From IMG/VR virus record IMGVR_UViG_3300020472_002183, positions 1 through 35,360 of that record: a stretch of 35,360 nucleotides of DNA; one strand, written 5' to 3'. Below the pieces are notes generated by a model. That model worked only from the letters and a program-made list of their open reading frames with translations. It ran no database searches and was not told where the DNA came from. This document shows positions 3,001-20,551 of the stretch, piece by piece; the stretch's first letter is position 1; the number at the start of each line of letters is the position of its first letter. Made by a program: the position numbers and the translations under genes. Origin of the DNA: a virus.

Positions 3001-6000
3001 CATATGGTTATATAACAAAAGCTGGTGGTATTATTTCTCAGATGAAATCTGGGTATAATAGTAGAGATGCAATTACATTAGCAAACAGACCTCCAGGATA
3101 TCCTGAAGGATTCTTTATAGAAGATTATAATTATCAAAAAGTATCAGATGAGACTGTTCTTGATCAAAATAATGGTAGATTTTGTGTAACACCTGAATAT
3201 CCAGATGGTGTTTATGCATATTTTGCAACTGTTGAAGAGGATATTGCAACTTCTGGGCAATTTGTTGGTTATAAGCAACCACAATTCCCATATTTGATAG
3301 GTGATAAGTTTAAATCAACTCCCAATCTTTTTAATTTCCATAAAGAATCAAACCAAGATGATTATTTACTAGAAAATACTGAATGGGTTAGAAATACTAC
3401 TCCTTATAATTTACATGAACAAGGTATTGATTATGGATATATTTCACTACCAAATGAACTTAAACAAACTGCTGATATTACAGGAGTTGCTCCAGGAACA
3501 ATTGATTCTGTCGGTATTGAGACTGGGGGAATTGGATATCAAGTAGGAGATATAGTCGTATTTGATAATACTGATAGTAATGGATCTGGAGCTTCTGTTA
3601 GAGTTACATCTATTGAGGGTAAGGAATTTGATACTATTAGTGTAGCTTCTTCTATTATTACTGGTGCTGAAATTTATCCATCAAATTCTTATGAAATACG
3701 TACAACAAGTCCTCATAATTTTGTAAATGGTGATATAGTTACTGTTAGTGGATTATCTACAACATCATCTGATATAGATGGGACTTATCCTATAACTGTA
3801 GAACAATCCTCATTTACTCTTGTAGGTCTTGGTACAACAGTTGCTGGTGCAGGAGAAATAGAAGTTACAGGAATAGTAACTTATTTTAATGTTTCAGGAG
3901 ACTTTAGTTTTGTTAAAATTAATGATCAGTTTGATGTTGGTGAACCTGTTGGTGCATTAGAAAAACCAGAAAAGATTCAGGTATTAAACATAGATGAAAG
4001 ATCTTCTAGAATAAGAGTTTTAAGAAATGCTGCATTTGATTTTGGACTTACTGGAAATTCAATTCTTTCTGGTGAAAATATTGCAGAAGAATCTAAAAGA
4101 TTTACTATACCTGCAGGTTTAAGTACTTCATTTGCTGGTAGAGAAAATACTCAATATTATTTTGACCCTAAAGAAGTTGTTGGATTTGGTCTTACTGTTG
4201 GAATTTCTCATACTGCTTATATTAATAATCCAGGTGCAGGGGCATCAATAATCAATATTGCATCAGGAGCATTATACATACAAAATCACAATTTACATAC
4301 TGGAGATGAATTGGTATATAATTCATCTATTCCTATGTTTGAGGGAGATGAACCTATAGGTATTGCTACAGTAGGTATTATAACCGCAGGATATTATAAT
4401 GTATCAACTCCTGGTCCTTTAGCAGATGGTACAAAGTTATATGTTGCTAAAATAAATGCTAATTTAATTGGTTTATCTACTGTTAGGGTTGGTGTAGGTA
4501 GTACAGGTACTTTTGTAGGTGTTACAAGCGAATTTAGGGACTCTACAACGTTATTATTCTCTAGTCCTGGTACAGGCGTTCTTCATAATTTTAAAACAAA
4601 TTTTGATCCAATTACCGCAACTGTTACTAGACATCAAGTTACATCATTAGTAAAAGAAGATCATGGTTTACAAAATGGAGATATTGTAGATCTAAGTGTT
4701 AATCCAGGTGTTGCTTCGACCTTTATTGTCAAGTATAATGATTATAATAGAAAACTTATAATAGGTGAAAAATCATTTGCTGATACTGATGTTAACGTAG
4801 CAGATGACTCAATTACAATAGAAGGTCATGGATTAGTTACTGGACAAAAAATTGTTTATACTGCTATATCCCCTTCTTCTGGATTAGATAATAATAGAAT
4901 TTATTATGTTTATGTTTCTGACCATAATACTATCAAATTATGTCATACAATTTGGGAAACACAACAGTTTACTCCAAACTTTGTTAATATTAATTCTGCT
5001 TCAGCAGGTAATATTGGTCCAATAAATCCACCAATCAATGCATATAAGGATTCTACAGTTGTATTTAATGTTGGGGATTCTAGTTTAGCATTCATAAGGG
5101 ATTCTCAACCATATTCTGCATTTGAGCTTGATTTTTATACTGATACTAGCTTTACTAAACTTTGGAATAATAGGGTTAGTGATGTTGTTAGGGATGGAGT
5201 AGCTGGTATTAATTCTAGTGCTACTGTTAGTATAACAATTGACAGGCATTCTCCTGATTCTCTTCATTACAATTTAACACCATTATACGAAACAGATTTA
5301 CCTCCAGTTAAAGAAGAAATTGATTTTGATAAAGAAGTATTTTCTAATAACACAATATTTGTTAAAGATAGTAATTTTGCAGGTAAGAGAACAGTTTCTG
5401 TTGCTTCTACAAATGAATTTACGTTTACTGTTGGCGATTTACCTGAAACTGTTTCCTATAAAAATAATAATCCAAAGATATCATATAAAACTACTTCTAC
5501 AAATGCTACTGGACCAATTGCAGAAATTAAGATTGTAAATGGTGGAGCAAACTATTATTCTTTACCAGGAATTACCTCAGTTGCATCATTTACAGGTAGT
5601 GGAGCAATACTTAAACCATATACAACAAGTATTGGTAAAATTAAAAATAGTAAGATTAAAGATATTGGATTTGATTTCCCATCAGATACTACTTTAAGAC
5701 CAACTACAAATTTACCTCAAGTATTATTTTTAGATAGTCTATCAAGAGTATTTTCTGTTGGTATTACATCTGCAGGTAAAGGATATATTAAACCTCCAAC
5801 ATTACTTGTTTTTGATGGAAGAACTAAAAAGAGAGTTGATGATATTGAGATAAAATATAAATTAGGTGATGATCAAGCACAAATAATCAAAAATAAGGCT
5901 AATCTAAATCCAGTTCCACCAATACTTTTACCAATTAATAATACTAATGGTATTGGTATTGCTACAATTGGGTTTACTACAGCAACTAAAGAAGTTGTAA

Positions 6001-9000
6001 TTGGATTTAATACTGGATTTAGTGAAGTATTCCCATTTGATGTTGGGGATAAATTCTTAGTCGAAAATATTAGTGTTGGTATTGGATCTACTGGATTTGG
6101 ATTTAATTCATCAGAGTATGAATATAAGATGTTTGTTGTTAGTAAAACAACTCCTAATCTTGGTGGTATTGGATCTATATTCTACAATCTTGAGGGTTAT
6201 TTACCAGATGGACAACAACCTGGTGATTTTGATGTAGTTAATTCTGTTGGTAGGGTTATTCCTGAAAGAGATTTCCCAATATTTGATGTCCGTTTAGAAA
6301 ACAATTCATTCTTTGCGAATGAAATTGTAAAATCCAACTCTACTGGTGTAGTTGAAAGTTGGGAACCTACTACTGGAGTATTAAAAGTTATTTCTAATGA
6401 AATATTTGATCCAAATACTCTTATAGTTGGACAATCTTCAGGAGCATCTGGAATTATTTCTTCTACAAGAAATTTTGATTCTTATATGGATTTGGGAGTA
6501 TCATCAAAAGTATCTAGTGGATGGGAAACTAATTCTGGATTCTTAGACGATAATCAACAAAGAGTTCAGGATAATATGTATTATCAGAACTTCTCATACT
6601 CACTTAAGTCTAGAATTGCCTATGATACTTGGCAGGATGTTGTATCTACTTTAAATCATACATTAGGATTTAAAAAGTATTCAGATTATGAAGTAGTTTC
6701 TGATTCTTCACTACCTGAAGGTGGATCTGGATATTATATTAAAGGTGGTGGTACAGGTGTAGAAAATCATGTACCTGCGTCTATGGTAATAGGTGTTACT
6801 ACTTCATTAACATTCTCTGAAGTTGTATCTGAATGTATTGGTGTAGGTAATTTAAATTGCGTTGCTGACTTTGATATGGTTAGCGAAAATGCATTACAAA
6901 TTGGCAATAGCACAATATCTAATGAAATAAGATTTACAAGTAAGACACTTACTGATTACTTTGAGTCTATTGGTAATAGAGTACTTTCTATTGATGATAT
7001 AAGTCCTACATTTAATAGTAATCCTAGACCTACTCCATTCAGTGTAGTAAGTAACTTTACATTATCAGATGTAAGAGCACAGAAGTATATTACTTACGTT
7101 AGAGATAAGAGATATCTTGGTGAAAGACAGATTATGGTTGTTGATATTATTAATGACAACTACAATGCTTATATCAGTCAATATGCAAGAGTAGAAACTG
7201 AATATGATCTTGGATCATTTGATTTCACAGTACAAGGAACTGATGGGCAGTTATTATTCTATCCAACAAGAAGTACTGTAAATGATTTTGATATTACATG
7301 CTTATCTTACAATATCGATGATAATTTAGCAGGAATTGGTACAACAACTATCGGTAGTACTACTGTTGATACTGGTAGTTTTGATATTTCTGGTGGAACT
7401 ACTACTATTGCTGAGTTTGATTATGATCATACTCTTGGTGGAAAAGTTCTTGTAGAGATTACAGGATCAAGTAATGAATATGAAATGGATGAACTTAATT
7501 TTATAGTTGATGCATTTGGTGGGATTGATATAGTCGAATATCCTCAAATAACCACTGATGTTGGGGAAGTTGCTAGTGCTGGTATGGGAACGTATTGGGC
7601 ATATACCGATGGTGTTAAGTGTAAGATTGACTTTATTCCACATCCTGCAACTAATAGATTATTTACAGTAGAACCTTCTGAAGTTAATGATACTGATGAC
7701 ACAATCACTATGGTAAATCATAGATTGTCAACAGGATCTGGATTAAAGTATACGGAAGGTGCATTATCAATAGGTGGTCTTATTGATGGTACAACATATT
7801 ATGTTATTAACGTAAGTGAAGATGTTATCCAGTTAGCAACAACTGAAGAAAATGCAAAAGAAAATATACCAATAGATCTCACAACTTCAGGAACAGGACA
7901 GCAGTTCTTTAGAGTTCTTACAGTAATTAACTGCATCTATAAGGAACTTGATGAAAGTCTTGTTGGTTTTGGAACACAAGTTAATATGAAACATGCTCGT
8001 TTAGAGAGTGATTTAGTTGCTATATCTGCATCAGGTACACCAACTCCACAAGTGATTATGAAGTATCCAACTCAATTGGATGCAAATACTGATGGATATG
8101 ATGGTGCATACTTCATGGCATTTGTTGAAACTGGTACTTCAGGTACTGCTAGTGCCATAAGATACTTCAGTGAACATATGATTATTGATGATTATAATGA
8201 AGGAATGCAAACTGGTGAAGTATACGAAGCAGAATGGGGAGTTCTAAGTCATAATAATGTTGCTGGATTGGGTACATTTGGTTATAGACTTGATAAGAAT
8301 CCAGGCGGAACTTCATTTGTAGAAGTAACATTTACTGCTCCTGCCAATCAAGCATCGAGAGTAACATATTTCATGAATGCCCTTAAGGTTCAGGATGATT
8401 TACAAGATCAAATTCTATTTGATAATGCACTAATACAATCTGAATCTGGTACTTATGAAGGTACTCATAGTGATATTAAGAGAGCATTTAACTTAACACA
8501 CAACAACTATCCTATTTTCGAGAGAGAATTTGATGGAAGTGATACTGAAATTATTAGTATTTTAGATAATACAATTAAGTTACCAAACCATTACTTTGTT
8601 ACTGGTGAAAAACTTACATACGAACCAATAGGATTAGGAAGTAGCACCAATATTGGTATTGTTACTACAACTATTTCGGGTATTGGTCAAACCGACAAAC
8701 TTCCTCGTACAGTTTACGCTGTTAAAGTTGATGAGGAGAAGATTAAACTTGCAGGATCTGCAGAAAACGCATTATTAGGAACACCTGAAATATTAGATAT
8801 TTCTAGTGTTGGTATTGGTACAACAATGAAGTTTGTTGCTGATAGACAGAATACAAAGGTTATTGTTGCTCTTGATAATATTATTCAGTCTCCAGTTGTA
8901 TCTACAGCACTAACAACACATTTAGATCAGCAATTATTCACTACAGACAATCTAGTACAAGTTGGAAGTATTACTTCCATATTTGGGGGAGATTTGATTA

Positions 9001-12000
9001 AGATTGGTGATGAGATAATGAAGGTAGAAGGTGTAGGTATTGGAACTGCTAATGGAATAAGAGTACGTAGACCTTGGTTGGGTACTAAAGTTGGTTATGC
9101 TGCAACTAGTGCATTAGTAACTAAGGTACAGGGTAATTATAATATTGTTGATAACGTACTTAACTTTGTAGAAGCACCTTATGGTAATGTACCATTTAGT
9201 TCCACAACTAACGAACCCGATGAAAGAGATTGGGTAGGTATTGAAACTGGATCAAGTTTCCAAGGAAGATCCTTTATGCGTTCAGGTATTCCTGATACAT
9301 CATCAGAAGCATATAGTAACAACTACATCTTTGATGACGTTTCTGCTGAATTTGATGCTATTAACAGTACATTTACATTAAAAACAGAAGGTGGTAATTT
9401 TACTGGTGTTGAGCAAGATAATGCAGTTGTTTTAATCAACGATATTTTCCAAGAACCAGGATTAGTTGGTGATTATTTCTTAGAGCAGAGTGCAGGTATT
9501 ACATCTGTTACTTTTGTTGGTACTGCAAGAACAATTACTAATGATGTTGGTATTTCTTCCTTCCCAAGAGGTGGTGTAATAGTCTCAGTTGGATCTAAAT
9601 CTGGTTTAGGATATCAACCATTAGTTGTTGCTGGTGGTAAAGCAAATGTTTCTATTGCAGGAACAATTAGTTCAGTTAGTGTTGGTAATAGTGGATCTGG
9701 ATATAGATCTGGGATTCAGACAGTAGTTAATGTTGGAGTTGTAACAACACCTAACATTCCAAATAAGATTATTGGTATTGGTACAGCAGCAATTTCTAAT
9801 GGACATGTTTCAGGAATTACAGTTACCAATCCTCAAATTTTCCATGCTCCAAGCGAAATTCAGAATGTTACTTACACAAGAACTAATGGTGTAACTACAG
9901 TAACTACAATTAATCCTCATGGATTATCAGAATCTGAAATGGTTGTGTTATCTGGAATAGCATTTACTTGTGATTATGCTCCATCAGTTAACATATATGG
10001 TGCAGAATATGATAATACTACTGGAATAATGACAGTTACTACTACCACTTCTCATGGAATTGGTAGTGATAAGCAAGTTATATTTACTGGATTAGGAATG
10101 ACTTGTGGTATTGATAATGGTGCTACAACTCATATCTATCCAAGAGGAAAAGATATTGCTTATAATAGACCAATTAATATTTTAGATGATGGAGCACATC
10201 ATACAGTAACTGCTGCTGATTATAATCCAACTACAGGTAAGATGGTAGTTGCACTTAGTAATGCTCATGGAATGATTAATGGGGATTTTGTTAAATTTAT
10301 TGATAACTCAATATCATTTACTTGTGATAAAGATAATCATGAAACAGTTCATTCTTATCCAAGAAAAGGAGATCATCCTACTAATAATTGGTTAAAGATT
10401 TTTGATGTAACTGCTAATGGTTTTAGTGTTTATGTTTTAGACTTTACTCAAAGACCATCATCTAATACTTCTAACCATACGTTCCATTCAGCAATTGATA
10501 ATGGATTAGTTCATAATAATGGTAAGATAACGGTTGATGTTGGTGCAGCAGGTGCTAGTGATCAATATGCTCATACTTGGGTAGGTGGAAATGCTGCTAA
10601 TGCTGTTACAACTGGTGGTGATCATACACATAGATTCCATAGTGCTACAACTGGTGCTTTAATTAGTGGTGGTGATTATAATCATAGATTTGCAAGTGCT
10701 CTTGATGGTGGAGTTTTTGTTACTGGAATAGGAACTACAACTCCAGTTGATGCAACTTATAATGCAGAAAAAGGTGAATTAGTACTTACTATTCCCAATC
10801 ATCCTTATACAATTGATGATACTGTACAAGTATATCCAGATGCTATAACATTTACTTGTGAAATGGATGGAAATACAACAAATCATTCATATCCAAGAAT
10901 AACTGATCCGATAGTAGGTATAGCAACTGATATTGCTGGAGCAAGTAAGGATACAATTACACTTCTTGTCGGTAAATCACCGTTGGTTAAGTATGATGTT
11001 TCAGATGCAACTTATACAGGATCTACTGGTAAGTTAGTCTTAAATATCGGAAATCATTCTTTACGTGGATCTTCCACCTTTACTATCACTAATGCAGAAT
11101 ATGATCCAGTCTCTGGAATCATGACTATGACATCTAATTCTCATGGTTTATCTGTTGGGGATAGAGTTAAGATTGCAGATAACTCAATAACATTCCGTTG
11201 CGATCAAGATGGATTTAACTCAGATCATTCATATCCAAGGGCAGCCGTTCATAAAGGTAACGGTGTTGTAGAACCAGATCCTTCTCATAATACTTGGTTA
11301 CCAATCTCTAAAGTAACAACAAATACTTTCACTGCTAGAGTGATAGATGAAACACCTTCGACTAATACAACTACTCATGCATTCCAAAGTGCAGATCCTA
11401 ATGGAATAACCAAAGCAGGTGAATCTGTTAGAATTGCTAAGGATAGTTTGACATTTACTTGTTCAATGGATGATTATGTAAGTCCTCATAGTTATCCAAG
11501 AGGAACAGATCCAATATACGAAACATCAGTATCTGTTGGTGCAACAACTAATAATACAATTACTCTTGATGTTGGAGTTAGTACTTCTGTAAATTATACA
11601 GTAACTAATGCAGACTACACTGCATCTACTGGTATTATGACAATGACTCTCAGTGAGCCTCATAGATTATATGCTGGTGTTAATGTCAATATTGCTACTG
11701 AATCTCTAACATTTACATGTACTAAGGATGGAAATGCTACTCAACATAAGTATCCAAGAAAACCAGATCCTACTTATAATGGAGTAGATGTTATTGGTAT
11801 TGGTAATTTAGTTCAGAAGAATGTTACTAATGCAACTTACATACCATCTAATGGTAATTTAGTTCTAACAATTGGTACTAATCATGGATTGAAGATTGGT
11901 GATGCTGTTAAGATTAAGACTGATTCATTAGTCTTTACTTGTGCTATGGATAGTGATGCTAGTAATCATTCTTATCCAAGAGTAACTGATCCTATACATG

Positions 12001-14681
12001 ATAAGTTTGTTAATGTTTCTAGTGCTAATCAGTCTGCTGGTACGATTACATTAAATGTTGGAACAACTCCAGAAGTAAGTCATAATGTTTCAGATGCAAC
12101 TTATAATCCAGATTCTGGTGAAATGGAGTTAACAATTGGTCTCCATACTTTAACTGCAGGTACAAGTATTAGACTTGTTGCTAATTCATTAAACTTCTCA
12201 TGTAATAATGCTGGAGTACAAAATAGAACATATCCTCGTGCAACTGGTGCTAATACAAATAGTGGTTCTGATTATGCGTATAATACTTCTATAGAAATTT
12301 TAGCGGTTACAACAACCACTATTCTAATCAACGTTAATGATCCAGTAAATCCTGGTCCTATTAGTCACAACTATCCACACACATTCATCAGTGCAACTGC
12401 TGGTGCTGTTAAGAGTGGTGGTAACTATAACCACACATATGTTGGTGGAACTGTAGCAAATGCAGTTAGTGTTGGATCAACTGTATTGTCAGTTAATATT
12501 GGTGTTTCTACAGTACCAACATTCTACAAGTCTGGTGGTAAAGTTCAGCAAGCAATTGTTGCACCTAGAGCAAAGAATCTTTCCCCTAGTGCTGCTGATC
12601 CTGCTGTTGACGGTAGTGTAGTTCTTAAGGTACTTGATAGTACATCATTTGAGGTTAATAGTGGATTATCAACACGTCATCACATTTATGCAAGAGGTGG
12701 TAAAGTTGATCCATTCTTAGATGTTGTAATTGATAAACCTCTTTCATATAATAATGTTCCATTAGTTTACAGTGGATCTGCTCCTGCAGGTGTTGGAACA
12801 TACGCTACTGCTGATATTATTGTTGGTCAAGGTTCTAGTGTTATTAATTTCTCTATTAATAATAGTGGATATCGTTATGGTGTTGGTGAGAAATTAACAG
12901 TTTCTTCTGGTGGTACTTTAGGTATTCCAACAACATCAGATTTTGATGAATTCCAACTTACTGTCCAAGACATATTCACTGATGAATTTAATGGTTGGTC
13001 AATGGGTATGTTGCAAACATTAGATAATGTTGATCATTTATTTGATTCTACAAGAAAAACTTTCCCAATAAAAGTTGGCGGTAATATTATTGCTATTAAA
13101 TCTGCAGAGGGATCTAATATTAATGTTGAGGATACTCTATTAGTATTCATTAATGATATATTACAGGTTCCTGGTAAAGGATTTATCTTTAATGGTGGTA
13201 GCGTAATTACCTTTGGTGAAGCACCTAAGAAAGGTGATACTTCTAAGATTTTATTCTATAAGGGAAGTGGAGATGTTGATGTTGTCTTTAGAAATATAAT
13301 CGACACTGTAAAGCGTGGAGATACATTAAAACTTGATAATGATGTTGAGATGGGTCAGCATTGGAGTCTAGAAGAAGATGAAAGAGTTGCTACCAACATT
13401 ATATCAATTGATACTGCTGAAACTAACCCATATACTGGTCCAGGAAATGTTAGTGATTCTAGTTTAATGAGACCAGTTACTTGGTGTCGTCAAACTTCTG
13501 ATATGATTATTGATGAAACCGAAGTTGGTAAGGGAAGAGAATTGTATGAACCAGTTATTTCTCCTTCTGCTTATATAACTAGACCAATTTCTGCTGGATC
13601 TACTGAGGTATATGTTGATAACTTAAGACCATTGTTTGATGGTAAGAATGAGAATAATGTTGATCCATACTTATTATTCCAGAAGAAAGTTACTTTCGTT
13701 GATATGGAAACTCAAGTTGGAGCAAGTGCTACAGCAACAGTTTCTGGTGATGGAGTAATTTCTATTACTGTAACCGATGGTGGTGTAGGATATAGTACTG
13801 CACCTACAGTTTCTATACAGAATCCAATTGGAATTGGATCTACTGCTCTTGCTACTGCAACTGTAAACAATACAGGATCTATTTCTGCTGTTACTGTTTC
13901 TTATAGTGGTACTGGTTATACATCTATACCACAGGTTCTTATTTCTCCACCAACATTATCTGAAGAAACAAAACCAATTAATTGGTTTGCAGGTGATTCT
14001 GGAACAATTGTTGGATTTGGTACTACAACCATTGCTAATAGTGATAGTTTACTATTTGACTTCCATATTCCGTTAGGTTCTGATTTACGTGATGATTCTT
14101 TAGTGGGATCTGCGATTACATTAAGTCAGATACAACTAGGTGATTACTTTGTTGTTACTAATTCTACAGTTGGTATAGCACAGACAATGATAAGATCATA
14201 TGATTTAGGTGATACTGTTGTTGCAATAGGAACAGAATTTATTAATAATGTTTACTGTGTTAATCATGTAGAAAATAAGCATGTTAATCTTCCTGGTATC
14301 GGAGTAACAATGGTAAGAAGAGTACGTTCTAGAATTACTGGAATGTCCACAATTACCTTCGATTCTTCATATATCACGATGGATAATGAGATATATACTA
14401 TGGATAATGCTGTAACTGGATCTGGTAGCACCTATGATGGTACTGTTAACACTCCTGTAGGGATTGGAAACTTTAGTTGGGGTAAGCTACAAACTAAGTC
14501 TAAATTACAAAATAATTATAAATTCTATGGTGGAAATGGTATTGGTGTAGGAGAATATTCTACAGTAGGTGAGGATGCTGATGATGAAACTATAATTATA
14601 GAACATTCTGCTACAGGTATTCATACTTCTTCGATTGTAAGAAGATTTGAACCTTTGAGATCAATCAACTACTTAGTCTAA
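1..14681 (+). CDS. Giant YHYH-domain virion structural protein, 5' end outside the window
   Basis: The reading frame is open from base 3 to the TAA at 14679-14681, so the gene enters from the left and at least 4,893 codons are visible. A YHYH domain is readable at about 2955-3233 (GWAYDGNPIYGPYGY, then NGRFCVTPEYPDGVYAYFAT). The rest is Gly/Thr/Ser/Val/Asn-rich beta-type sequence built from recurring modules. One has the form H-G-L-x-T-G-D...YYV...I.L (about 1740, 2070, 4290, 4830, 7710, 8590). Another is a GxGYxxxP type (about 1440, 2370, 3500, 5510, 9670, 13720). A third is INDI(F/L)QxPG (about 9430 and 13150), and a fourth is an FTC...HSYPR array. No signal peptide, transmembrane segment or enzyme motif is visible. 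Such giants are known as virion proteins of marine T4-like phages. A baseplate-peripheral or fibre role is inferred from its place upstream of gp8, roughly where T4 carries gene 7. Confidence 0.85.
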   Translation, partial: TKAYAPITYVEKVSTGTAGVAKTFYKLAVDSGYDRSGITAGAIYGKFSVHAKSRVIGHVGIGTSVLDVDSTVGFPKSGELSVQYKNLSVGIISYTSKSLTQFYGCTNINGVILDRTDVGINTYAYGYSSVEPDKVIKIKINSVINSLKYDSDSYGYKKGDKVKINTLGIGATGFKCDNWFYNGCPVYTIDSFELVDASDQTWQITLKTDHFFRKGDAAVISGRDSSPKNCEIVAISSSKSFVVSGQGALSNTDVYNIRRTISKAVPSGTHTIGAGISVFSTDIQNLYVDNDKLLVASASIPSYGTQPLDAYDHSVTFSGTFSGTDWEISTQDHSLYTGDSIYYSPNKITQNFINSAGQPTSRIVDGPGLVEEGIYFVDRVDLNTIRLSKTKSDLLNNRFLSVDAKTPITVTDNKIQKTDYNNKILDTQKIVREISNPNNEGVETKTKSGFTGILINGVEILNYKSRDFIYHGEVKSIDLLSGGSEYDVINPPDLKIEDSVGIGATGHVSVLGSLQEVRVIDPGFDYYETPIITVSGGNGFGALVSPNMKTIAHEVKFNATQKGERVITGANSLINFTQKHRFGTGERIIYKTDGERALGGISTSSEYYVDVINDYKIRLHNKSWEAIAGINTITFTSHGTGNQIIKSYYNKKVVESINVINSGSNYENKKRVTGTTGISTSLNIINILDHGYESGESVMYTAQETPVGGLISGNEYYVTKVNKDSFKLSEAGVGVTYHNYYYNTNQYLDFTSAGVGTHLFNYPEIKLNISTSGFSTTTDQAQLQPIFRGTLTSVRLSDNGVGYGSSDIINLQNEPLITLVRGTNAQIEAIVDNGTIVDVLIKNTGKDYSSVDLQIIGNGVGAVLTPIITNGQITDIKIIEGGANYVKGGTFINVVPSGSLAKFKPNLQSWNLNLVSRNINKFTVDDGYLIDGINSTDTLQYSHLYAPRQLRERIFSVDQVGRKMYGSYDLSKDLGGNENTSTQHSPIIGWAYDGNPIYGPYGYITKAGGIISQMKSGYNSRDAITLANRPPGYPEGFFIEDYNYQKVSDETVLDQNNGRFCVTPEYPDGVYAYFATVEEDIATSGQFVGYKQPQFPYLIGDKFKSTPNLFNFHKESNQDDYLLENTEWVRNTTPYNLHEQGIDYGYISLPNELKQTADITGVAPGTIDSVGIETGGIGYQVGDIVVFDNTDSNGSGASVRVTSIEGKEFDTISVASSIITGAEIYPSNSYEIRTTSPHNFVNGDIVTVSGLSTTSSDIDGTYPITVEQSSFTLVGLGTTVAGAGEIEVTGIVTYFNVSGDFSFVKINDQFDVGEPVGALEKPEKIQVLNIDERSSRIRVLRNAAFDFGLTGNSILSGENIAEESKRFTIPAGLSTSFAGRENTQYYFDPKEVVGFGLTVGISHTAYINNPGAGASIINIASGALYIQNHNLHTGDELVYNSSIPMFEGDEPIGIATVGIITAGYYNVSTPGPLADGTKLYVAKINANLIGLSTVRVGVGSTGTFVGVTSEFRDSTTLLFSSPGTGVLHNFKTNFDPITATVTRHQVTSLVKEDHGLQNGDIVDLSVNPGVASTFIVKYNDYNRKLIIGEKSFADTDVNVADDSITIEGHGLVTGQKIVYTAISPSSGLDNNRIYYVYVSDHNTIKLCHTIWETQQFTPNFVNINSASAGNIGPINPPINAYKDSTVVFNVGDSSLAFIRDSQPYSAFELDFYTDTSFTKLWNNRVSDVVRDGVAGINSSATVSITIDRHSPDSLHYNLTPLYETDLPPVKEEIDFDKEVFSNNTIFVKDSNFAGKRTVSVASTNEFTFTVGDLPETVSYKNNNPKISYKTTSTNATGPIAEIKIVNGGANYYSLPGITSVASFTGSGAILKPYTTSIGKIKNSKIKDIGFDFPSDTTLRPTTNLPQVLFLDSLSRVFSVGITSAGKGYIKPPTLLVFDGRTKKRVDDIEIKYKLGDDQAQIIKNKANLNPVPPILLPINNTNGIGIATIGFTTATKEVVIGFNTGFSEVFPFDVGDKFLVENISVGIGSTGFGFNSSEYEYKMFVVSKTTPNLGGIGSIFYNLEGYLPDGQQPGDFDVVNSVGRVIPERDFPIFDVRLENNSFFANEIVKSNSTGVVESWEPTTGVLKVISNEIFDPNTLIVGQSSGASGIISSTRNFDSYMDLGVSSKVSSGWETNSGFLDDNQQRVQDNMYYQNFSYSLKSRIAYDTWQDVVSTLNHTLGFKKYSDYEVVSDSSLPEGGSGYYIKGGGTGVENHVPASMVIGVTTSLTFSEVVSECIGVGNLNCVADFDMVSENALQIGNSTISNEIRFTSKTLTDYFESIGNRVLSIDDISPTFNSNPRPTPFSVVSNFTLSDVRAQKYITYVRDKRYLGERQIMVVDIINDNYNAYISQYARVETEYDLGSFDFTVQGTDGQLLFYPTRSTVNDFDITCLSYNIDDNLAGIGTTTIGSTTVDTGSFDISGGTTTIAEFDYDHTLGGKVLVEITGSSNEYEMDELNFIVDAFGGIDIVEYPQITTDVGEVASAGMGTYWAYTDGVKCKIDFIPHPATNRLFTVEPSEVNDTDDTITMVNHRLSTGSGLKYTEGALSIGGLIDGTTYYVINVSEDVIQLATTEENAKENIPIDLTTSGTGQQFFRVLTVINCIYKELDESLVGFGTQVNMKHARLESDLVAISASGTPTPQVIMKYPTQLDANTDGYDGAYFMAFVETGTSGTASAIRYFSEHMIIDDYNEGMQTGEVYEAEWGVLSHNNVAGLGTFGYRLDKNPGGTSFVEVTFTAPANQASRVTYFMNALKVQDDLQDQILFDNALIQSESGTYEGTHSDIKRAFNLTHNNYPIFEREFDGSDTEIISILDNTIKLPNHYFVTGEKLTYEPIGLGSSTNIGIVTTTISGIGQTDKLPRTVYAVKVDEEKIKLAGSAENALLGTPEILDISSVGIGTTMKFVADRQNTKVIVALDNIIQSPVVSTALTTHLDQQLFTTDNLVQVGSITSIFGGDLIKIGDEIMKVEGVGIGTANGIRVRRPWLGTKVGYAATSALVTKVQGNYNIVDNVLNFVEAPYGNVPFSSTTNEPDERDWVGIETGSSFQGRSFMRSGIPDTSSEAYSNNYIFDDVSAEFDAINSTFTLKTEGGNFTGVEQDNAVVLINDIFQEPGLVGDYFLEQSAGITSVTFVGTARTITNDVGISSFPRGGVIVSVGSKSGLGYQPLVVAGGKANVSIAGTISSVSVGNSGSGYRSGIQTVVNVGVVTTPNIPNKIIGIGTAAISNGHVSGITVTNPQIFHAPSEIQNVTYTRTNGVTTVTTINPHGLSESEMVVLSGIAFTCDYAPSVNIYGAEYDNTTGIMTVTTTTSHGIGSDKQVIFTGLGMTCGIDNGATTHIYPRGKDIAYNRPINILDDGAHHTVTAADYNPTTGKMVVALSNAHGMINGDFVKFIDNSISFTCDKDNHETVHSYPRKGDHPTNNWLKIFDVTANGFSVYVLDFTQRPSSNTSNHTFHSAIDNGLVHNNGKITVDVGAAGASDQYAHTWVGGNAANAVTTGGDHTHRFHSATTGALISGGDYNHRFASALDGGVFVTGIGTTTPVDATYNAEKGELVLTIPNHPYTIDDTVQVYPDAITFTCEMDGNTTNHSYPRITDPIVGIATDIAGASKDTITLLVGKSPLVKYDVSDATYTGSTGKLVLNIGNHSLRGSSTFTITNAEYDPVSGIMTMTSNSHGLSVGDRVKIADNSITFRCDQDGFNSDHSYPRAAVHKGNGVVEPDPSHNTWLPISKVTTNTFTARVIDETPSTNTTTHAFQSADPNGITKAGESVRIAKDSLTFTCSMDDYVSPHSYPRGTDPIYETSVSVGATTNNTITLDVGVSTSVNYTVTNADYTASTGIMTMTLSEPHRLYAGVNVNIATESLTFTCTKDGNATQHKYPRKPDPTYNGVDVIGIGNLVQKNVTNATYIPSNGNLVLTIGTNHGLKIGDAVKIKTDSLVFTCAMDSDASNHSYPRVTDPIHDKFVNVSSANQSAGTITLNVGTTPEVSHNVSDATYNPDSGEMELTIGLHTLTAGTSIRLVANSLNFSCNNAGVQNRTYPRATGANTNSGSDYAYNTSIEILAVTTTTILINVNDPVNPGPISHNYPHTFISATAGAVKSGGNYNHTYVGGTVANAVSVGSTVLSVNIGVSTVPTFYKSGGKVQQAIVAPRAKNLSPSAADPAVDGSVVLKVLDSTSFEVNSGLSTRHHIYARGGKVDPFLDVVIDKPLSYNNVPLVYSGSAPAGVGTYATADIIVGQGSSVINFSINNSGYRYGVGEKLTVSSGGTLGIPTTSDFDEFQLTVQDIFTDEFNGWSMGMLQTLDNVDHLFDSTRKTFPIKVGGNIIAIKSAEGSNINVEDTLLVFINDILQVPGKGFIFNGGSVITFGEAPKKGDTSKILFYKGSGDVDVVFRNIIDTVKRGDTLKLDNDVEMGQHWSLEEDERVATNIISIDTAETNPYTGPGNVSDSSLMRPVTWCRQTSDMIIDETEVGKGRELYEPVISPSAYITRPISAGSTEVYVDNLRPLFDGKNENNVDPYLLFQKKVTFVDMETQVGASATATVSGDGVISITVTDGGVGYSTAPTVSIQNPIGIGSTALATATVNNTGSISAVTVSYSGTGYTSIPQVLISPPTLSEETKPINWFAGDSGTIVGFGTTTIANSDSLLFDFHIPLGSDLRDDSLVGSAITLSQIQLGDYFVVTNSTVGIAQTMIRSYDLGDTVVAIGTEFINNVYCVNHVENKHVNLPGIGVTMVRRVRSRITGMSTITFDSSYITMDNEIYTMDNAVTGSGSTYDGTVNTPVGIGNFSWGKLQTKSKLQNNYKFYGGNGIGVGEYSTVGEDADDETIIIEHSATGIHTSSIVRRFEPLRSINYLV
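2955..3233 (+). other. YHYH domain within the giant protein
   Basis: The translated segment contains the family signature SPIIGWAYDGNPIYGPYGY. About 45 residues later it has the second hallmark, NGRFCVTPEYP followed by YAYFAT. Both halves are intact. The domain is widespread in marine bacteria and in cyanophage structural proteins. Its biochemical role is not established. Confidence 0.8.
9868..12245 (+). repeat. Tandem protein repeat array (FTC...HSYPR units) in the giant gene
   Basis: About nine degenerate units occur, spaced irregularly at roughly 130-540 bases. A full unit starts with a strand like (A/D)(T/D)Y...TGxMxLT, continues with HGLxxGDxVxI, and ends with SLTFTC..DG....HSYPR.TDP. 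FTC-type motifs begin near 9962, 10096, 10317, 10848, 11190, 11450, 11709, 11932 and 12192. Some units are incomplete; for example the one near 11007 lacks the FTC half and the one near 11405 lacks the first strand. His-rich spacers with GGDYNH-like motifs interrupt the array (about 10480-10720, and again around 12360-12470). The DNA copies have diverged and only the protein pattern is strong. Confidence 0.85.
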
Positions 14682-14707: not shown

Positions 14708-16063
14708 ATGGCCAAACTAGGTATATCAACAGGAACAAGTGCGAATGATGGTACTGGTGATACCCTGAATCAAGCTGGTACTAAATCAAATTCTAACTTT
14801 GATGAGGTCTATACCTATCTTGGTGATGGAACTAACTTAGGTTCTACAGGAACTAGTCAGTTAGTTGCTGGTAAATTGCAGGTTGGTGCTGGAGAAAGTA
14901 CGGGTGATGCTAACGTTGCGACATTTAATGGATCGGTTAACTTAAACGGTGGAGATATAAGAGTTGGTGGTGGTGCGTCTATAACAGGAATTACAACAAT
15001 TAAGGGAGATACTGTTGTTCATGGAGATGTTTATATTCATGCTGGTATTGTAACTGCAGGTACTGGTGTTGTTACTTACTTTGGTGATGGTGGAAATCTT
15101 ACTGGTCTAGGTGGTGCTGGTAGATGGACAGGTGATGCTACTGGTATTAGTACAACAAAAATAGTTGGTATCAATACTATTGCTTCTGCTGCTGGTATTG
15201 CATTAACAGTTAATGGTCCTACTTATTTGGGTGGGATAACAACGGTTGCTGGTCAGATCCATACAGATTCAGCAGTAAAAGTACAAGGTGCTTTTTTACT
15301 GACTGATAGACTAGCATTACAACATAATCCTCTAAATCCATATACAACTTGGGGTGATTTTTTAGCAACTGGTGAAGGACTTAATATTATTGGTTCTCCA
15401 GATGGCAGTGGAAAATCACTTCCAATTCATATTAGAGGAAGAGAATCTGGAGGAGGTGGTCTTACCGCAAATTATGTTACAAGTTTCTATACATCTGGTG
15501 GTGCTAAAGGTGGTGCAAATTTTACTGGTATAGTTACTGCACAACAATTTAGTGGTGATATTGCTGGTGTAGGTGCTACATTTACTACTGTTTCTGCTGG
15601 TGGTTCTATAACTGGTGCTTCTTTCTATGGTGATGGATCAAATCTAGAAGGTGTTGCAAGTTCTGGTATTGGATTATCAACAAGAGCAACAATAACCAAA
15701 CTAGTAAGTGGTGTTGGTGTTGGTGCAACAACAAACAGTGCATTTACTGATGGTAGAAAATCTTGGATGTTACAAAAAGTAGGTATTTCGAGTGCTGCAT
15801 GGGTAGTTTTCTATACTGATCAAAATGCATTAGCAGCAGATTCTGATAGATCTTTTACCACTGACCCAACACCTGGATCTGGTGTTATTGCTGAAGTTAG
15901 ATCAACTACTGCAGGTGTTAGTACGTTTATAATGAGTCCAGGTATAATGGGATGGAATAATGATGCTACTCCATCAAATAATATATGGTTTAAAATAACA
16001 AATAACGAAACCTCACAAGCAAACATTACAGTATCTTTAGATATTGTTCAGTTGGAGGCTTGA
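14708..16063 (+). CDS. Tail fibre-like virion protein
   Basis: This 451-residue protein is Gly/Thr/Ala/Val-rich with almost no charged clusters. Its N-terminus (GISTGTSANDGTGDTL, then SNFDEVYTYLGDGTNL) is the start seen in many cyanophage fibre and baseplate-appended proteins, where it probably attaches the protein to the tail. The middle carries fibre-like repeats of the form GI(T/V)TxxxFxGDGxNLxG, near residues 114-137 and 277-317, consistent with a trimeric beta-structured shaft. The last 120 residues, with WMLQKVGISSAAWVVFYTD, form a different, probably globular domain. The start is ATG with only a weak Shine-Dalgarno (AGGG). It lies 26 bases after the giant gene and 3 bases before the protease gene, so the two may be co-expressed. 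The receptor is unknown and no collagen-like or chaperone domain is seen. Confidence 0.72.
   Translation: MAKLGISTGTSANDGTGDTLNQAGTKSNSNFDEVYTYLGDGTNLGSTGTSQLVAGKLQVGAGESTGDANVATFNGSVNLNGGDIRVGGGASITGITTIKGDTVVHGDVYIHAGIVTAGTGVVTYFGDGGNLTGLGGAGRWTGDATGISTTKIVGINTIASAAGIALTVNGPTYLGGITTVAGQIHTDSAVKVQGAFLLTDRLALQHNPLNPYTTWGDFLATGEGLNIIGSPDGSGKSLPIHIRGRESGGGGLTANYVTSFYTSGGAKGGANFTGIVTAQQFSGDIAGVGATFTTVSAGGSITGASFYGDGSNLEGVASSGIGLSTRATITKLVSGVGVGATTNSAFTDGRKSWMLQKVGISSAAWVVFYTDQNALAADSDRSFTTDPTPGSGVIAEVRSTTAGVSTFIMSPGIMGWNNDATPSNNIWFKITNNETSQANITVSLDIVQLEA
16054..16058 (+). promoter_or_regulatory. Ribosome binding site of the protease gene
   Basis: GGAGG lies inside the last codons of the fibre gene, 8 bases before the ATG at 16067. 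It is one of the strongest Shine-Dalgarno sites in the window and fixes this start. Confidence 0.75.
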
Positions 16064-16066
16064 TAA

Positions 16067-18970
16067 ATGCCATTAAGTGATATAAAAAGGGAGTACGTAG
16101 TTACTGTTAGGGAGCATGGTGATTTAGAAAATTTTTATGATGAGATGGAGACTTCTGGAAGTGCTGGATGTTGTCCAGAAAGGGAAGTTGAATTAATTGC
16201 AAGAAGAACTATTAGTAGAAATACACATTATAAATTAAGTGAACTAGATGTAGATAAATTAAAAAATCATCCAAATGTAATCAATGTAGAATTAGCACCT
16301 CATGAATTAGGTATTGAAGCAACTCCTCTTTGGGGTCCACAAACTGGTGATTTCCAAAAGAACACAACTTTTTCTAGTGGTGATCTTAATTGGGGGTTAA
16401 AGAGAGTTGTTGATGGTGCTCAAACTCCTAATTGGGGTGTTGATGGGCAAATGGTTATAAATGATACAATTACTACAGGTGCTTCAGGAAAAAATGTTGA
16501 TCTTGTAATTGTAGATAGTCATGTTAATCATGAACATCCAGAGTTTTGGAGAAGTCCTGACATTAATAATGGATCCAGAATGAACCAAATTGATTGGTTT
16601 GCTGAATATGCAGCTGCTATAGGTGATCCTTATGGTACTGGAAAAAATTATACTTATAGTAGTTCTGGATACGGAACACCTGGACAAAGTAATCATGGAA
16701 CTCATGTTGCTGGTACTGCTGGAGGTAATACTCAGGGGTGGGCAAGAGATGCTAATATGTTCAATATAGCATTTAGTACCACTTTAGTTAATGATGCATC
16801 TGGTACGTCATATCCTGATTTTCCTACCTATCTTTTTGATTATCTAAGAGAATTTCATAGAAAGAAAGCAATTAATAGTAAGACTGGAAGAAAAAATCCA
16901 ACGATTGTAAATCATAGTTGGGGATATAGTCAAGGATCTCCAGATCTTAATAGTATTACAAGTGTTGATTATAGAGGAAATACTACACAAGTAGTAGGAA
17001 CAGATCCTGAAAGAAAAATTATATTAGAAGCAAATGGAGTTCCTGTTCCATTTAATACTACTTTGTATAGAGTTCCATTTAGGTATTCCGTAATAGCAGC
17101 TGATATTTATGATGCTGCTTTAGAGGGTATCATTAATATATCTTCTGCTGGTAATTCTTATTGGTTATGTGAGGGAGATGTAAGTGCAGATGATTATAAT
17201 AACAGATATTATGTTGGATCCAGTGTATTTGCTCATTCTAGAGGATCAAGTCCAGGAGCCGATCATACGATGATTTGTGTTGGATCTGTTGGTGATGTAA
17301 AAGATGAATTTAAATCAACTTTTAGTAATACTGGTTCTAGAATTGATGTTTGGGCACCTGGATCAAATATAATTTCTTCTGTATTTGATACTACTGCATC
17401 TACAGAAAACTATGGAACTCTAGTAAATGATCCAAGAGATTCTAATTTTAAACTTGCAGATATTGATGGAACTAGTATGTCTAGTCCTCAAGTTGCTGGA
17501 TATATTGCATGTCTTGCAGAACAAGAACCAAATTTGACATGGGAAGATGTATTAGAGCATATAAAAGATAACTCAAAGTATGATCAAGTTTCAAATAGTG
17601 CATTAGATGGTTATGGGGAAGCATTATTCTCAACAGCAGGAAATTTTGGATGGACTGTTCCTGTTGGAATAACTACTATCTCTGTCGTATGCATTGGTGC
17701 TGGTGGTGGTGCTGGTGGTGCTTCTCCACAAGATGGTGATGGAGGTGGAGGTGGTGGATTAGCATATAGAAATAATTTTCCAGTAACACCAGGACTAACG
17801 GTGAATGTTTTTGTTGGAGGTGGTGGTGCTGGTGGTTTACAAGGTGCTGCTGGAGGAGCTGGTGGTGCTTCATTTGCACAGTATGAAGGGTCGATGATTG
17901 CACATGCTGGTGGTGGATATGGTGGATCAGGATCTGGTGGATCTGGTGGTGCTGGTGGTGGTCATTATGCCCCTTCTGATGGTGGTGGTAATGGTGGTGC
18001 TGGAGGTGGTTTTAACTCTGCTCAAGGTGGTGGAGGAGGTGCTGCTGGATATTCTGGTGATGGTGGACAAGGAGCAAGTTCATATCCAAACGGTTCAGGT
18101 ACTGCTGGACAAGGTGGTGGAGGTGGAGGTGGATTCCAAGCTCCTGGAGGTGGTGTAGGAATATATGGAGAAGGTGCTAGTGGACAATCATCAAATCTTG
18201 CTAATAGTAATCGCATAGGTTATCCTGGATCTGGCGGTAAAGGTGGATATAGTGCTGGTTTTGGTCCTAATGGTGCTGCTGATGATGGTTCAGGAATATA
18301 TGGTGGAGGTGGATTTGGTAATTATACGGGTGGTACTGGTGGTGTTCGTATTGTTTATTGGGGTCCTAATAGTCCTCAGAGAGCATTCCCATCAACTAAC
18401 GTATCACAAACAACGATATGGTCACAAGATTATAAGAATCTAGGACCAGGTACTAATAATAGGTATCTTTATTATAAGAGAAAGAGACTAGATACTGGTT
18501 TAGTATATCCTCATGATACTTGGAAAAACCGTATACCATTAGATGCTGGTACTAAATATCCAAGACAAAAGAATGTAACTACTAAGACAGAACAATTCGC
18601 TGAAATATATCAATGGTCTTTTGATGTTACTGCTCCAGGAACTGGATTTTATTTCTTTGCTGATTCCTATGATAGATTAGGAACAGTACGTGATGCCACC
18701 TATACAACTATTACATGTAAGAGAGGTGATAGTTTGCAATTTACTATAAATGCTTCTGGTCATCCATTCTTTATTAGTAATAGGAAAGGTAATGGTATGC
18801 CATCTCCATCTGAAACTCCAAGTGGAATTACTAATAATGGTAGTGATTTTGGTGCTGTTGTTTGGGATACTACAAATGTTACTCCAGGAGTCTATTGGTA
18901 TAACTGCCAATATCACTCAAATATGTATGGAATGATAGTAGTAACTGAATCTGCATTTATTCCTGCATAA
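16067..18970 (+). CDS. Subtilisin-like (S8) serine protease fused to glycine-rich and cupredoxin-like domains
   Basis: The protein has 967 residues. Residues 1-80 look like an inhibitor-I9 propeptide (YVVTVRE at the start; YKLSELDVDKLKNHPNVINVEL at the end). Residues about 140-520 are a complete S8 domain: Asp150 in DLVIVDSHV, His210 in SNHGTHVAG, oxyanion Asn363 in SSAGN, and Ser470 in DGTSMSSPQVAG. Residues 529-765 are a glycine-rich domain introduced by WTVPVGITTISVVCIGAGGG, as in phage adhesins. Residues about 850-960 look like a cupredoxin with all four type-1 copper ligands: His899, Cys947, His950 and Met953 (Cys-x2-His-x2-Met, the amicyanin spacing). There is no signal peptide or membrane segment. 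It sits between a fibre gene and gp8, so a tail-attached protease acting at the host surface or on virion proteins is inferred. An accessory lysis or processing enzyme is the alternative. Domain calls are firm; the role is not. Confidence 0.88.
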   Translation: MPLSDIKREYVVTVREHGDLENFYDEMETSGSAGCCPEREVELIARRTISRNTHYKLSELDVDKLKNHPNVINVELAPHELGIEATPLWGPQTGDFQKNTTFSSGDLNWGLKRVVDGAQTPNWGVDGQMVINDTITTGASGKNVDLVIVDSHVNHEHPEFWRSPDINNGSRMNQIDWFAEYAAAIGDPYGTGKNYTYSSSGYGTPGQSNHGTHVAGTAGGNTQGWARDANMFNIAFSTTLVNDASGTSYPDFPTYLFDYLREFHRKKAINSKTGRKNPTIVNHSWGYSQGSPDLNSITSVDYRGNTTQVVGTDPERKIILEANGVPVPFNTTLYRVPFRYSVIAADIYDAALEGIINISSAGNSYWLCEGDVSADDYNNRYYVGSSVFAHSRGSSPGADHTMICVGSVGDVKDEFKSTFSNTGSRIDVWAPGSNIISSVFDTTASTENYGTLVNDPRDSNFKLADIDGTSMSSPQVAGYIACLAEQEPNLTWEDVLEHIKDNSKYDQVSNSALDGYGEALFSTAGNFGWTVPVGITTISVVCIGAGGGAGGASPQDGDGGGGGGLAYRNNFPVTPGLTVNVFVGGGGAGGLQGAAGGAGGASFAQYEGSMIAHAGGGYGGSGSGGSGGAGGGHYAPSDGGGNGGAGGGFNSAQGGGGGAAGYSGDGGQGASSYPNGSGTAGQGGGGGGGFQAPGGGVGIYGEGASGQSSNLANSNRIGYPGSGGKGGYSAGFGPNGAADDGSGIYGGGGFGNYTGGTGGVRIVYWGPNSPQRAFPSTNVSQTTIWSQDYKNLGPGTNNRYLYYKRKRLDTGLVYPHDTWKNRIPLDAGTKYPRQKNVTTKTEQFAEIYQWSFDVTAPGTGFYFFADSYDRLGTVRDATYTTITCKRGDSLQFTINASGHPFFISNRKGNGMPSPSETPSGITNNGSDFGAVVWDTTNVTPGVYWYNCQYHSNMYGMIVVTESAFIPA
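17696..18355 (+). repeat. Glycine-rich low-complexity region of the protease fusion
   Basis: About 220 residues are dominated by GG, GAGG and GGGGG runs encoded mostly by GGT and GGA codons, interrupted by short polar or aromatic inserts such as NNFPVTP and GYSGDGGQG. The pattern of glycine runs with short variable loops resembles polyglycine-helix adhesins such as gp38 of some T-even phages. Open frames on other strands here come from the repeated GGT codons. Confidence 0.85.
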
Positions 18971-19003: not shown

Positions 19004-20551
19004 ATGTCTGCAATTATAACCGATCAGATTAGAATATTAAACGCAAAGAATTTTGTTGCTGGTGTTGCTAACACTGACAATTCTTATTATTCTTTTATTG
19101 GTCTTCCTAACCCGTCTGATGTTCAGACTAATTGGGATACTGATCCACCTACTCCAAAAGATTCTTTTGATCAAGAGAATTCCTATTGGGATACTATGAT
19201 TGCAATGAAGAAAATTAATAATGGGGATATTCGACAGGTTGTTACTAAGAGAATTTGGAAGTCTGGTACGAAATATGACATGTATCGTCATGACTATAGC
19301 AGATCAAATACATCATCAATATCTAAAGCGACTAATTTATATAATGCATCTTTTTATGTTATAAACGAAGATTATAGAGTTTATATTTGTCTGCAAAATG
19401 GTACAAGTCCAGATTATCCAAATGGACAAATCTCATTAGATCAACCAACATTTACTGATTTAGAACCAAGAGCAGCAGGAACTAGTAATGATGGTTATGT
19501 TTGGAAGTATCTTTATACTATTAAACCAAACGAAATTGTAAAATTTGAGACTTCTGATTTTATCCCAGTTCCTCAAGATTGGGATAATTCAACTGAGAAT
19601 GCACCAGTAAGAGAGAATGCCATAGAAGGTTCTATTAAAATAGTTACTGTTACTAATGCAGGTGTTAATGTTGGTGCAATATCAACTGCATATACAAGAG
19701 TCCCTATTAATGGTGACGGATATGGTGGAGAAGCAACAGTAGTAGTTAACAATGATTTAAAAATAGATTCTGTAACTGTCTCTAGTCAAGGATCTGGTTA
19801 TACTTACGGAACTTTAGATTTATCAGCAGGTGGCGTTCCTGTTGCAGGTACTGAACCTGAATTTAATGTTATTATACCACCTAGTGGTGGTCATGGTTTT
19901 GACATATACCGAGAACTTGGTGCTTATAATGTTTTACTATATTCTCGATTAGAGAATGATACTGAGAATCCAGATTTCATAACAGGTAATCAATTTTCTA
20001 GAATTGGGGTTGTAGAAAATCCACTTGCACCAAATAGTATAATTCCACTTACTTTAGATAAAGCAAGTGCGGTAAATGCTATCAGGTTAACTGGTATTGG
20101 ATATAGTTCTGCTACCTTTGATCCAGATTCTCAATTTACCCAGACAATCGGTATTGCTCTTACTGCTGCTGGTAGAGTTATTAATTATGATCAAACAACA
20201 GGTGTTTTAAAGTATTGGCAAGATAGAGTTGGATTTAATACTGTAGGTGCTGCTTTAACAAATGCAACTTATGGATATGAGTTAATTGATTTTACCAGTT
20301 CTCCTTCTACTGGGGGTGATTTAGTTATTACACCAACAACAGGGTCTAATTTACAAATTTATAGTGGATTTAGCGGTTTTAGCACTACTATAAATAATAA
20401 GACATATAATCTTGGTCAAGATTTTACTGATGGTATCTCTTCACCCGAAGTTAAAAGATACTCAGGAAATATAATTTACGTTGATAATAGACCATCGGTT
20501 AACAGATCTGTAAACCAAAAAGAAGATATTAAAGTCATCTTGCAATTCTAA
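19004..20551 (+). CDS. 8: Baseplate wedge subunit gp8
   Basis: This 515-residue protein is a structural component of the contractile-tail baseplate wedge. Two blocks align by eye with T4 gp8. One is GYVWKYLYTIKP...FIPVPQDW near residues 164-194 (T4 has GYVWEYLFEIPP...YIVVPWP). The other is the C-terminus YSGNIIYVDNRPSVNRSVNQ ending in KVILQF (T4 has HSGEMIYMENRPPI ending in NILFTF). T4 gp8 has 334 residues. The extra length here lies largely in the middle, including residues about 205-300, which read as the GxGYxxG beta-repeat type (VTVSSQGSGYTYG) also found in the giant protein. The N-terminus MSAIITDQIRILNAKNFV is the form I associate with marine T4-like phages. The start is ATG with only a poor Shine-Dalgarno. 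The next gene follows after 16 bases. Confidence 0.85.
   Translation: MSAIITDQIRILNAKNFVAGVANTDNSYYSFIGLPNPSDVQTNWDTDPPTPKDSFDQENSYWDTMIAMKKINNGDIRQVVTKRIWKSGTKYDMYRHDYSRSNTSSISKATNLYNASFYVINEDYRVYICLQNGTSPDYPNGQISLDQPTFTDLEPRAAGTSNDGYVWKYLYTIKPNEIVKFETSDFIPVPQDWDNSTENAPVRENAIEGSIKIVTVTNAGVNVGAISTAYTRVPINGDGYGGEATVVVNNDLKIDSVTVSSQGSGYTYGTLDLSAGGVPVAGTEPEFNVIIPPSGGHGFDIYRELGAYNVLLYSRLENDTENPDFITGNQFSRIGVVENPLAPNSIIPLTLDKASAVNAIRLTGIGYSSATFDPDSQFTQTIGIALTAAGRVINYDQTTGVLKYWQDRVGFNTVGAALTNATYGYELIDFTSSPSTGGDLVITPTTGSNLQIYSGFSGFSTTINNKTYNLGQDFTDGISSPEVKRYSGNIIYVDNRPSVNRSVNQKEDIKVILQF

Follow-up and report, generated by a model that had tools for sequence, protein, structure and literature searches.

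A predicted subtilisin-like protease fused to glycine-rich and cupredoxin-like domains and paired with a fibre gene in a T4-type phage tail locus

The fusion gene and its neighbours

The stretch of DNA analysed here (the window), a virus record from IMG/VR with 35,360 bases, holds a T4-type tail and neck region. Its reading frames encode, in order, a giant gp7-type protein, a fibre, the fusion protein under study, gp8, a VrlC-type giant protein, gp13, gp14, gp15 and the terminase small subunit. The genes of the cassette and its boundaries, together with the C-terminal domain of the fibre, are as follows.

3..14681, plus strand: gp7-type wedge protein of giant size (4892 aa), its reading frame open at the 5' end; bounds the cassette on the upstream side
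14708..16063, plus strand: short fibre or tail-pin protein, 451 aa, with a gp9/gp10-type N-terminus (aa 6-42); PF07880, phrog_677/9627/15343
15638..16060, plus strand: UPC domain of the fibre (aa 311-451), a conserved jelly-roll at the C-terminus that directly precedes S8 genes; proposed as a docking tip
16067..18970, plus strand: protease-adhesin-cupredoxin fusion, 967 aa, ATG start, identified by its reading frame and domain matches and recurring in relatives
19004..20551, plus strand: gp8 baseplate wedge protein, 515 aa (PF09215 3.4e-15; phrog_438 1.4e-158); downstream boundary of the cassette

Segments of the window's gp7 aligned with gp7 of S-SM2 and Bellamy at 44-51% identity, and the nearest relatives of its gp8 were those of marine cyanophages, among them Bellamy and S-SM2 (66-71%). 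Since gp8 is closest to marine cyanophages, the phage is probably a marine T4-like one with a marine picocyanobacterium as its host. In S-SM2 and Bellamy, gp8 lies directly after gp7 and neither genome contains S8 or UPC, which suggested that the cassette is accessory.

Several further features of the neck region were observed. The gp14 neck protein (29694-32279) has 861 aa, far more than the 264-291 aa of the S-SZBM1 neck proteins; its T4_neck-protein match is confined to residues 1-168, and the remainder matches fibre and wedge PHROGs. A small LtfC-like or L-shaped tail fibre assembly protein (28425-28811) lies between the VrlC-type giant and gp13. Two overlapping reading frames (33698-34210 and 34207-34851) each match a different part of phrog_30733; they are either one gene that has been split or a pair of related pieces.

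Domain architecture of the fusion protein

The fusion consists of a prodomain, a linker, the protease domain, a glycine-rich domain, a conserved tail and a cupredoxin-like domain, in that order.

16067..16321, plus strand: I9-like prodomain (aa 1-85) with a conserved R..SRNTHY motif; weak Pfam matches in relatives, predicted fold, Foldseek
16487..17614, plus strand: Peptidase S8 domain (aa 141-516), proteinase K-like; PF00082, Foldseek match 2b6n, catalytic tetrad
16514-16516, plus strand: Asp150 of the tetrad
16694-16696, plus strand: His210 of the tetrad (HGTHVAG)
17153-17155, plus strand: Asn363 of the tetrad, the oxyanion Asn (SAGN)
17474-17476, plus strand: Ser470 of the tetrad (GTSMSSP)
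17627..18376, plus strand: glycine-rich domain (aa 521-770), 39% Gly, borderline PF21722 match, inserted after the S8 domain and ahead of the tail
18401..18583, plus strand: conserved tail NNRYL..YPR (~aa 779-839), found in the window by the tail profile (E=1.5e-15) and proposed to dock to UPC
18599..18946, plus strand: cupredoxin-like domain (aa 845-960) with ligands H899, C947, H950 and M953 (C-x2-H-x2-M); profile, ligands, AF2

An earlier note on this DNA had described one reading frame joining S8, glycine-rich and cupredoxin domains between a fibre gene and gp8. The single frame was confirmed, and Pfam matches placed a fibre with a gp9/10-type N-terminus upstream and gp8 downstream, as the note had stated. 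Its three domains were all recovered, with the catalytic residues exactly where it had put them, and the domain check of the cupredoxin was also positive; the I9-like prodomain and the conserved tail had been missed.

The S8 domain scored well above the curated cut-off of PF00082 (3.6e-23, 82.7 bits vs 21.8), was modelled by AF2 with a pLDDT mostly of about 90, and had the subtilisin/proteinase K fold according to Foldseek (2b6n, TMt 0.80). The tetrad is conserved across the aligned relatives, and a degenerate protease was ruled out since none of the relatives aligned over this region has lost a tetrad residue; the fusion is predicted to carry an apparently intact S8 protease. Inhibitor_I9 (PF05922) gave weak matches to the prodomain in 11 of 27 relatives (best 0.0086) and none in the window protein itself. 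The predicted order of elements in this region (b-a-b-b-a-b, AF2) fits I9, and its Foldseek matches include the pro-subtilisins 3afg and 3whi. The PADLOC 'subtilase' profile also matched the fusion; a defence role was not accepted on this ground, as generic S8 similarity is expected for any subtilase.

The glycine-rich domain scored 24.2 bits against the gathering cut-off of 24.3 for Gly_rich_2 (PF21722), is the most diverged domain within its clade, and matched no PDB chain by sequence at E<=1. A polyglycine II lattice was looked for over aa 620-743, where the AF2 model is poorly predicted (pLDDT mostly <50).

The cupredoxin-like domain was weak in a single-sequence Pfam search (Cupredoxin_1, E=0.19), and a profile of 29 copies (A5) found blue copper proteins, namely plastocyanin (3.8e-6), amicyanin (9e-5) and rusticyanin (1e-4). 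All four type-1 ligands are present in the fusion, and the AF2 pLDDT is about 90 over aa 881-960. Among 44 cupredoxin copies, which come from many tail proteins, H899 is kept in 41 and C947, H950 and M953 in 42, which would be hard to explain unless metal binding were selected; the copy in contig L053 has lost all four. The residues suggest that the cupredoxin in the fusion may be copper-loaded. The same ligand set is conserved in many cyanophage tail proteins that are not proteases (in L031, L065, L072, L090, L110, L114 and others). A cupredoxin domain is also carried by protein 206 of S-SZBM1, which was detected in virions by mass spectrometry with 9 peptides and 25% coverage (PMC9146016). 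No earlier description of cupredoxins in phage tails was found in the literature searched.

Recurrence and origin of the triple fusion

Eight or more further IMG/VR contigs also carry the triple fusion (L006-L011, L018/L022 and L023), and an assembly artefact or a frameshift was ruled out as its source because of this recurrence. The triple-fusion rows that were complete enough for the tree formed a single clade (SH-aLRT 100). Stand-alone S8 relatives are about 550 aa long, lack the glycine-rich domain and end in the same NNRYL..YPR tail; in the clade of the window, an inserted glycine-rich domain separates the protease from the tail, and the cupredoxin is placed after the tail. A second cupredoxin lies inside the tail region in L018 and L010. 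Cupredoxins are scattered across the S8 tree, requiring about 10 label changes when gains and losses are pooled on a tree that includes long branches. In two other proteins (L091:3124-5127 and L094:4499-6502), a cupredoxin is inserted between the S8 prodomain and the catalytic domain.

A recent acquisition of the fusion from a host was rejected, as one scan of genome contigs returned only two contigs, both of the MAG MED656. These contigs (L128 and L129), assigned to a gammaproteobacterial MAG, carry relatives of the fusion and are probably phage DNA misbinned with it.

Pairing of the S8 gene with UPC fibres

The fibre gene ends 3 nt before the S8 reading frame in the window. Its PF07880 match (1.2e-6, 29.2 bits vs 25) is confined to the first 40 positions of the 175 in the model, at its N-terminal end. 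Among S8 genes with an upstream reading frame within 20 nt, that frame ended in the UPC domain (~125 aa) in 98 of 106 cases, mostly at a gap of +1 or -1 nt, and many of these UPC-ending frames start with a gp9/10-type segment. When both profiles were searched in whole or large records with a UPC-partnered S8 gene, all eight had one UPC copy, located beside S8, a result to be read with the UPC profile having been built from S8-selected loci, a selection that whole-record searches offset only partly. UPC was modelled as a confident jelly-roll or beta-sandwich (AF2 pLDDT 92). It had no match to solved structures by sequence and no significant PDB match by fold; the fold search gave weak generic jelly-roll matches, including the C-terminal regions of two subtilases.

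The presence of the tail followed that of the partner, with 92 of 94 UPC-partnered S8 proteins having it vs none of 7 without UPC (Fisher p ~2e-9, overstated since the rows are related and not phylogenetically independent). No other reading frame of the S8 loci matched the tail profile. Two loci (L016:4622-9133 and L017:5878-10389) encode two consecutive S8 proteases of 674 and 827 aa; only the first lies behind a UPC fibre and carries the tail, and both features are missing from the second.

UPC fibres are not always followed by a protease. In S-BM3, Sf-CH1b and S-H9-1, an unrelated non-protease protein begins 1 nt after the UPC fibre, with a cupredoxin in two of the three. Because UPC also precedes such a partner, we read it as a docking tip and not as a protease substrate; for the same reason it could be an assembly feature. 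An uncharacterised family was seen in the place of S8 directly behind UPC fibres (L124:4308-6605, L027:1581-3884, L123:4302-6128 and L038:32709-34679). Some members of the non-S8 family carry a cupredoxin, and S-SCSM1 gp140 is flagged 'virion protein'.

Exchange of the distal fibre and the S8 gene as one block

To a sister-phage contig, L006, the window is 98.8% identical in gp7, 99.2% in gp8 and 98.2% in VrlC, and only 79% and 80% identical in the fibre and the S8 protein.

15200..18970, plus strand: exchanged block of distal fibre and S8 gene, diverged from L006 between flanks that are 94-100% identical; alignment and dS

The divergence starts inside the fibre gene at about 15200, beyond the end that attaches, and extends as far as the stop codon of the S8 gene. 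The genes on either side had a dS of 0.04-0.05, compared with 0.71 for the middle of the fibre and 0.29 for the S8 gene. This pattern, from one strain pair, suggests that the distal fibre and its tip form an exchanged receptor-facing module.

Such exchange bears on two other explanations. One is that S8 is mainly a binding module on the fibre, a receptor-binding scaffold whose proteolysis is incidental or lost. Fast exchange together with the distal fibre would fit this, as would the glycine-rich domain and the same-slot partners of other UPC fibres that lack a recognisable enzyme domain. The tetrad, however, is intact in every aligned relative, which is not expected were activity dispensable, and we consider this explanation improbable.

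The other is an assembly or maturation protease that cuts its co-translated fibre partner, or the giant gp7- or VrlC-type proteins, inside the cell and may stay attached afterwards. The protease has a closely coupled cis partner gene whose product has a strongly conserved C-terminus, the distal fibre and the S8 gene change together, and other phage fibres are known to be matured by proteases such as S74 domains. Against this, S-SM2, Bellamy and S-SZBM1 have giant tail proteins yet no S8, the occurrence of UPC with a non-protease partner indicates that it is not simply a protease substrate, and adhesin-like and cupredoxin additions would be of little gain to a maturation enzyme. Maturation was judged unlikely, if less so than a scaffold.

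Virion evidence from relatives

In CsCl-purified virions of S-SCSM1, 45 proteins were found by mass spectrometry (PMC9602691). In the GenBank record of this phage, about 47 products bear the flag 'virion protein', among them its S8 protein gp144 and the upstream partner gp145; the terminases are left unflagged. The record does not state what the flag means; from the similar numbers and the unflagged terminases, it apparently marks detection by mass spectrometry. The S-SCSM1 gp144 is about 29% identical to the fusion over the S8 region and lacks the tail, and gp145 ends in a non-UPC domain. From the flags of this distant homologue and its partner, the fusion of the window may also be located in the virion. 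For S-CREM1, 14 virion proteins have been reported, and no statement was found that its S8 protein is among them. The published proteome of S-SZBM1 is uninformative on the protease, since its genome has neither S8 nor UPC.

No obvious signal peptide was seen by eye at the N-terminus of the fusion (MPLSDIKREY), which sets it apart from an ordinary secreted host-type subtilase. An intracellular effector that degrades host proteins after infection, for example defence or photosynthetic ones, with the tail locus merely giving late expression, would be in keeping with this, with the breadth of subtilases as enzymes and with the PADLOC match, though the last is expected for any subtilase. Pairing with a C-terminal fibre domain, the virion flags of the homologue and the adhesin-type additions do not fit such an effector, which we regard as very improbable.

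A proposed protease tip acting at adsorption

The model that we favour, with confidence only slightly better than even, is that a zymogen protease sits docked at the tip of the fibre and cuts a host surface protein at adsorption. Its observed basis comprises the domains, the intact catalytic and copper residues, the gene pairing, the co-occurrence of UPC and tail, the co-exchange of fibre and S8 gene, and the virion flags of the homologue; from these we infer physical docking, zymogen control, activity, a substrate and copper loading. The gp9/10-type N-terminus of the fibre would plug into the baseplate, and its C-terminal UPC jelly-roll would hold the S8 protein through the NNRYL..YPR tail. 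The I9-like prodomain would aid folding and keep the enzyme quiet until processing. The glycine-rich domain, with adhesin-like loops, and the cupredoxin, which the lineage of the window gained before and after the tail, respectively, may grip the host surface. At adsorption the protease would cut an outer-membrane or surface-layer protein and so provide grip or access, much as the polysaccharide depolymerase spikes act on glycans. The earlier note had offered a virion-borne enzyme as a possible role, acting on the host surface or on the phage's own fibres. Its virion-borne, host-facing version is the best-supported reading, through the virion flags of homologue and partner, the near-obligatory fibre pairing and the recombination of the pair as one module.

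A more general proposal, possible and yet doubtful, is that T4-like cyanophages share a system of UPC fibres with docked, exchangeable tips, which would be mostly zymogen subtilisins mounted through a conserved peptide on a common jelly-roll, with a copper-loaded type-1 centre in the tip in the lineage of the window. If true, this would be a proteolytic, copper-bearing adsorption device that does to proteins what depolymerase tailspikes do to glycans. Glycan-cutting tail enzymes are well known, and we know of no established fibre-mounted protease that acts on a host surface protein. The receptors of marine cyanomyoviruses are, to our knowledge, largely unknown; a host-facing protease whose docking partner can be predicted would offer a concrete, testable route to them, and the UPC domain and S8 tail allow such cassettes to be recognised from sequence alone.

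Comparison with known systems

In the literature searched, which covered few subscription journals, no description was found of the triple architecture, of the pairing between UPC and tail, of the exchanged block or of the conserved copper sites in tail proteins. The S8-UPC gene pairing, the co-occurrence of UPC and tail, the exchanged fibre and S8 block and the triple fusion, all read from sequence, thus appear to be new. S8 peptidases of T4-like cyanophages were already noted by Sullivan et al. 2010 (PMC3037559). The family is large in these phages, with at least 590 relatives in IMG/VR, usually as stand-alone genes, and is annotated in several isolates. The earlier remark that no characterised T4-type baseplate protein has such an architecture therefore holds for the triple fusion and not for its S8 part, which belongs to a widespread, annotated cyanophage family. 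Nor is the joining of S8 to a cupredoxin novel, as it already occurs in the isolates S-CAM4, ACG-2014e and S-H9-1, although the S8+cupredoxin proteins of isolates are mostly called hypothetical.

The closest annotated family is PHROG_9158, 'subtilisin-like serine protease' (S-H38, S-CREM1, S-WAM2, S-RSM4 and Sf-FR1), which is the same S8 family with the I9-like N-terminus, the tetrad and the tail. In S-H38 and S-CREM1 the gene order resembles that of the window, with gp7, UPC fibre, S8, one more gene and gp8. Unlike the fusion, PHROG_9158 proteins are stand-alone, about 550-570 aa long and without glycine-rich or cupredoxin domains, and in several phages the pair is located elsewhere in the genome. 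In S-CAM4, ACG-2014e/i/j, S-H9-1 (668-682 aa) and AG-345-P14, a protein encoded behind a UPC fibre likewise has S8 and then the same cupredoxin; these proteins differ in having no glycine-rich domain, are 33-35% identical to the fusion and hold a separate place in the tree, and in S-CAM4 and S-H9-1 the genes are not between gp7 and gp8. The T4-GC 518/519 S8 peptidases (P-HM1/P-HM2 and S-BM3; PMC3037559) also combine S8 and a cupredoxin in a large tail-region protein, but are 1831 to 2648 aa long, with another domain order and without UPC partner or tail.

The gp38 of T2, S16 and PP01, mounted on gp37 (PMC12892980), is a separate, fibre-borne tip with a glycine-rich receptor-binding part, a position that is only proposed for the fusion. 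Protease and cupredoxin domains are absent from gp38, whose attachment is through the N-terminus; the glycine-rich domain of the fusion matched no solved adhesin in the PDB by sequence (E<=1) and was not classed as gp38. Secreted subtilases of the proteinase K and aqualysin type share the fold, tetrad and prodomain with the fusion, which differs from them in being encoded in a phage tail locus, in having no obvious signal peptide and in being fused to virion-type domains.
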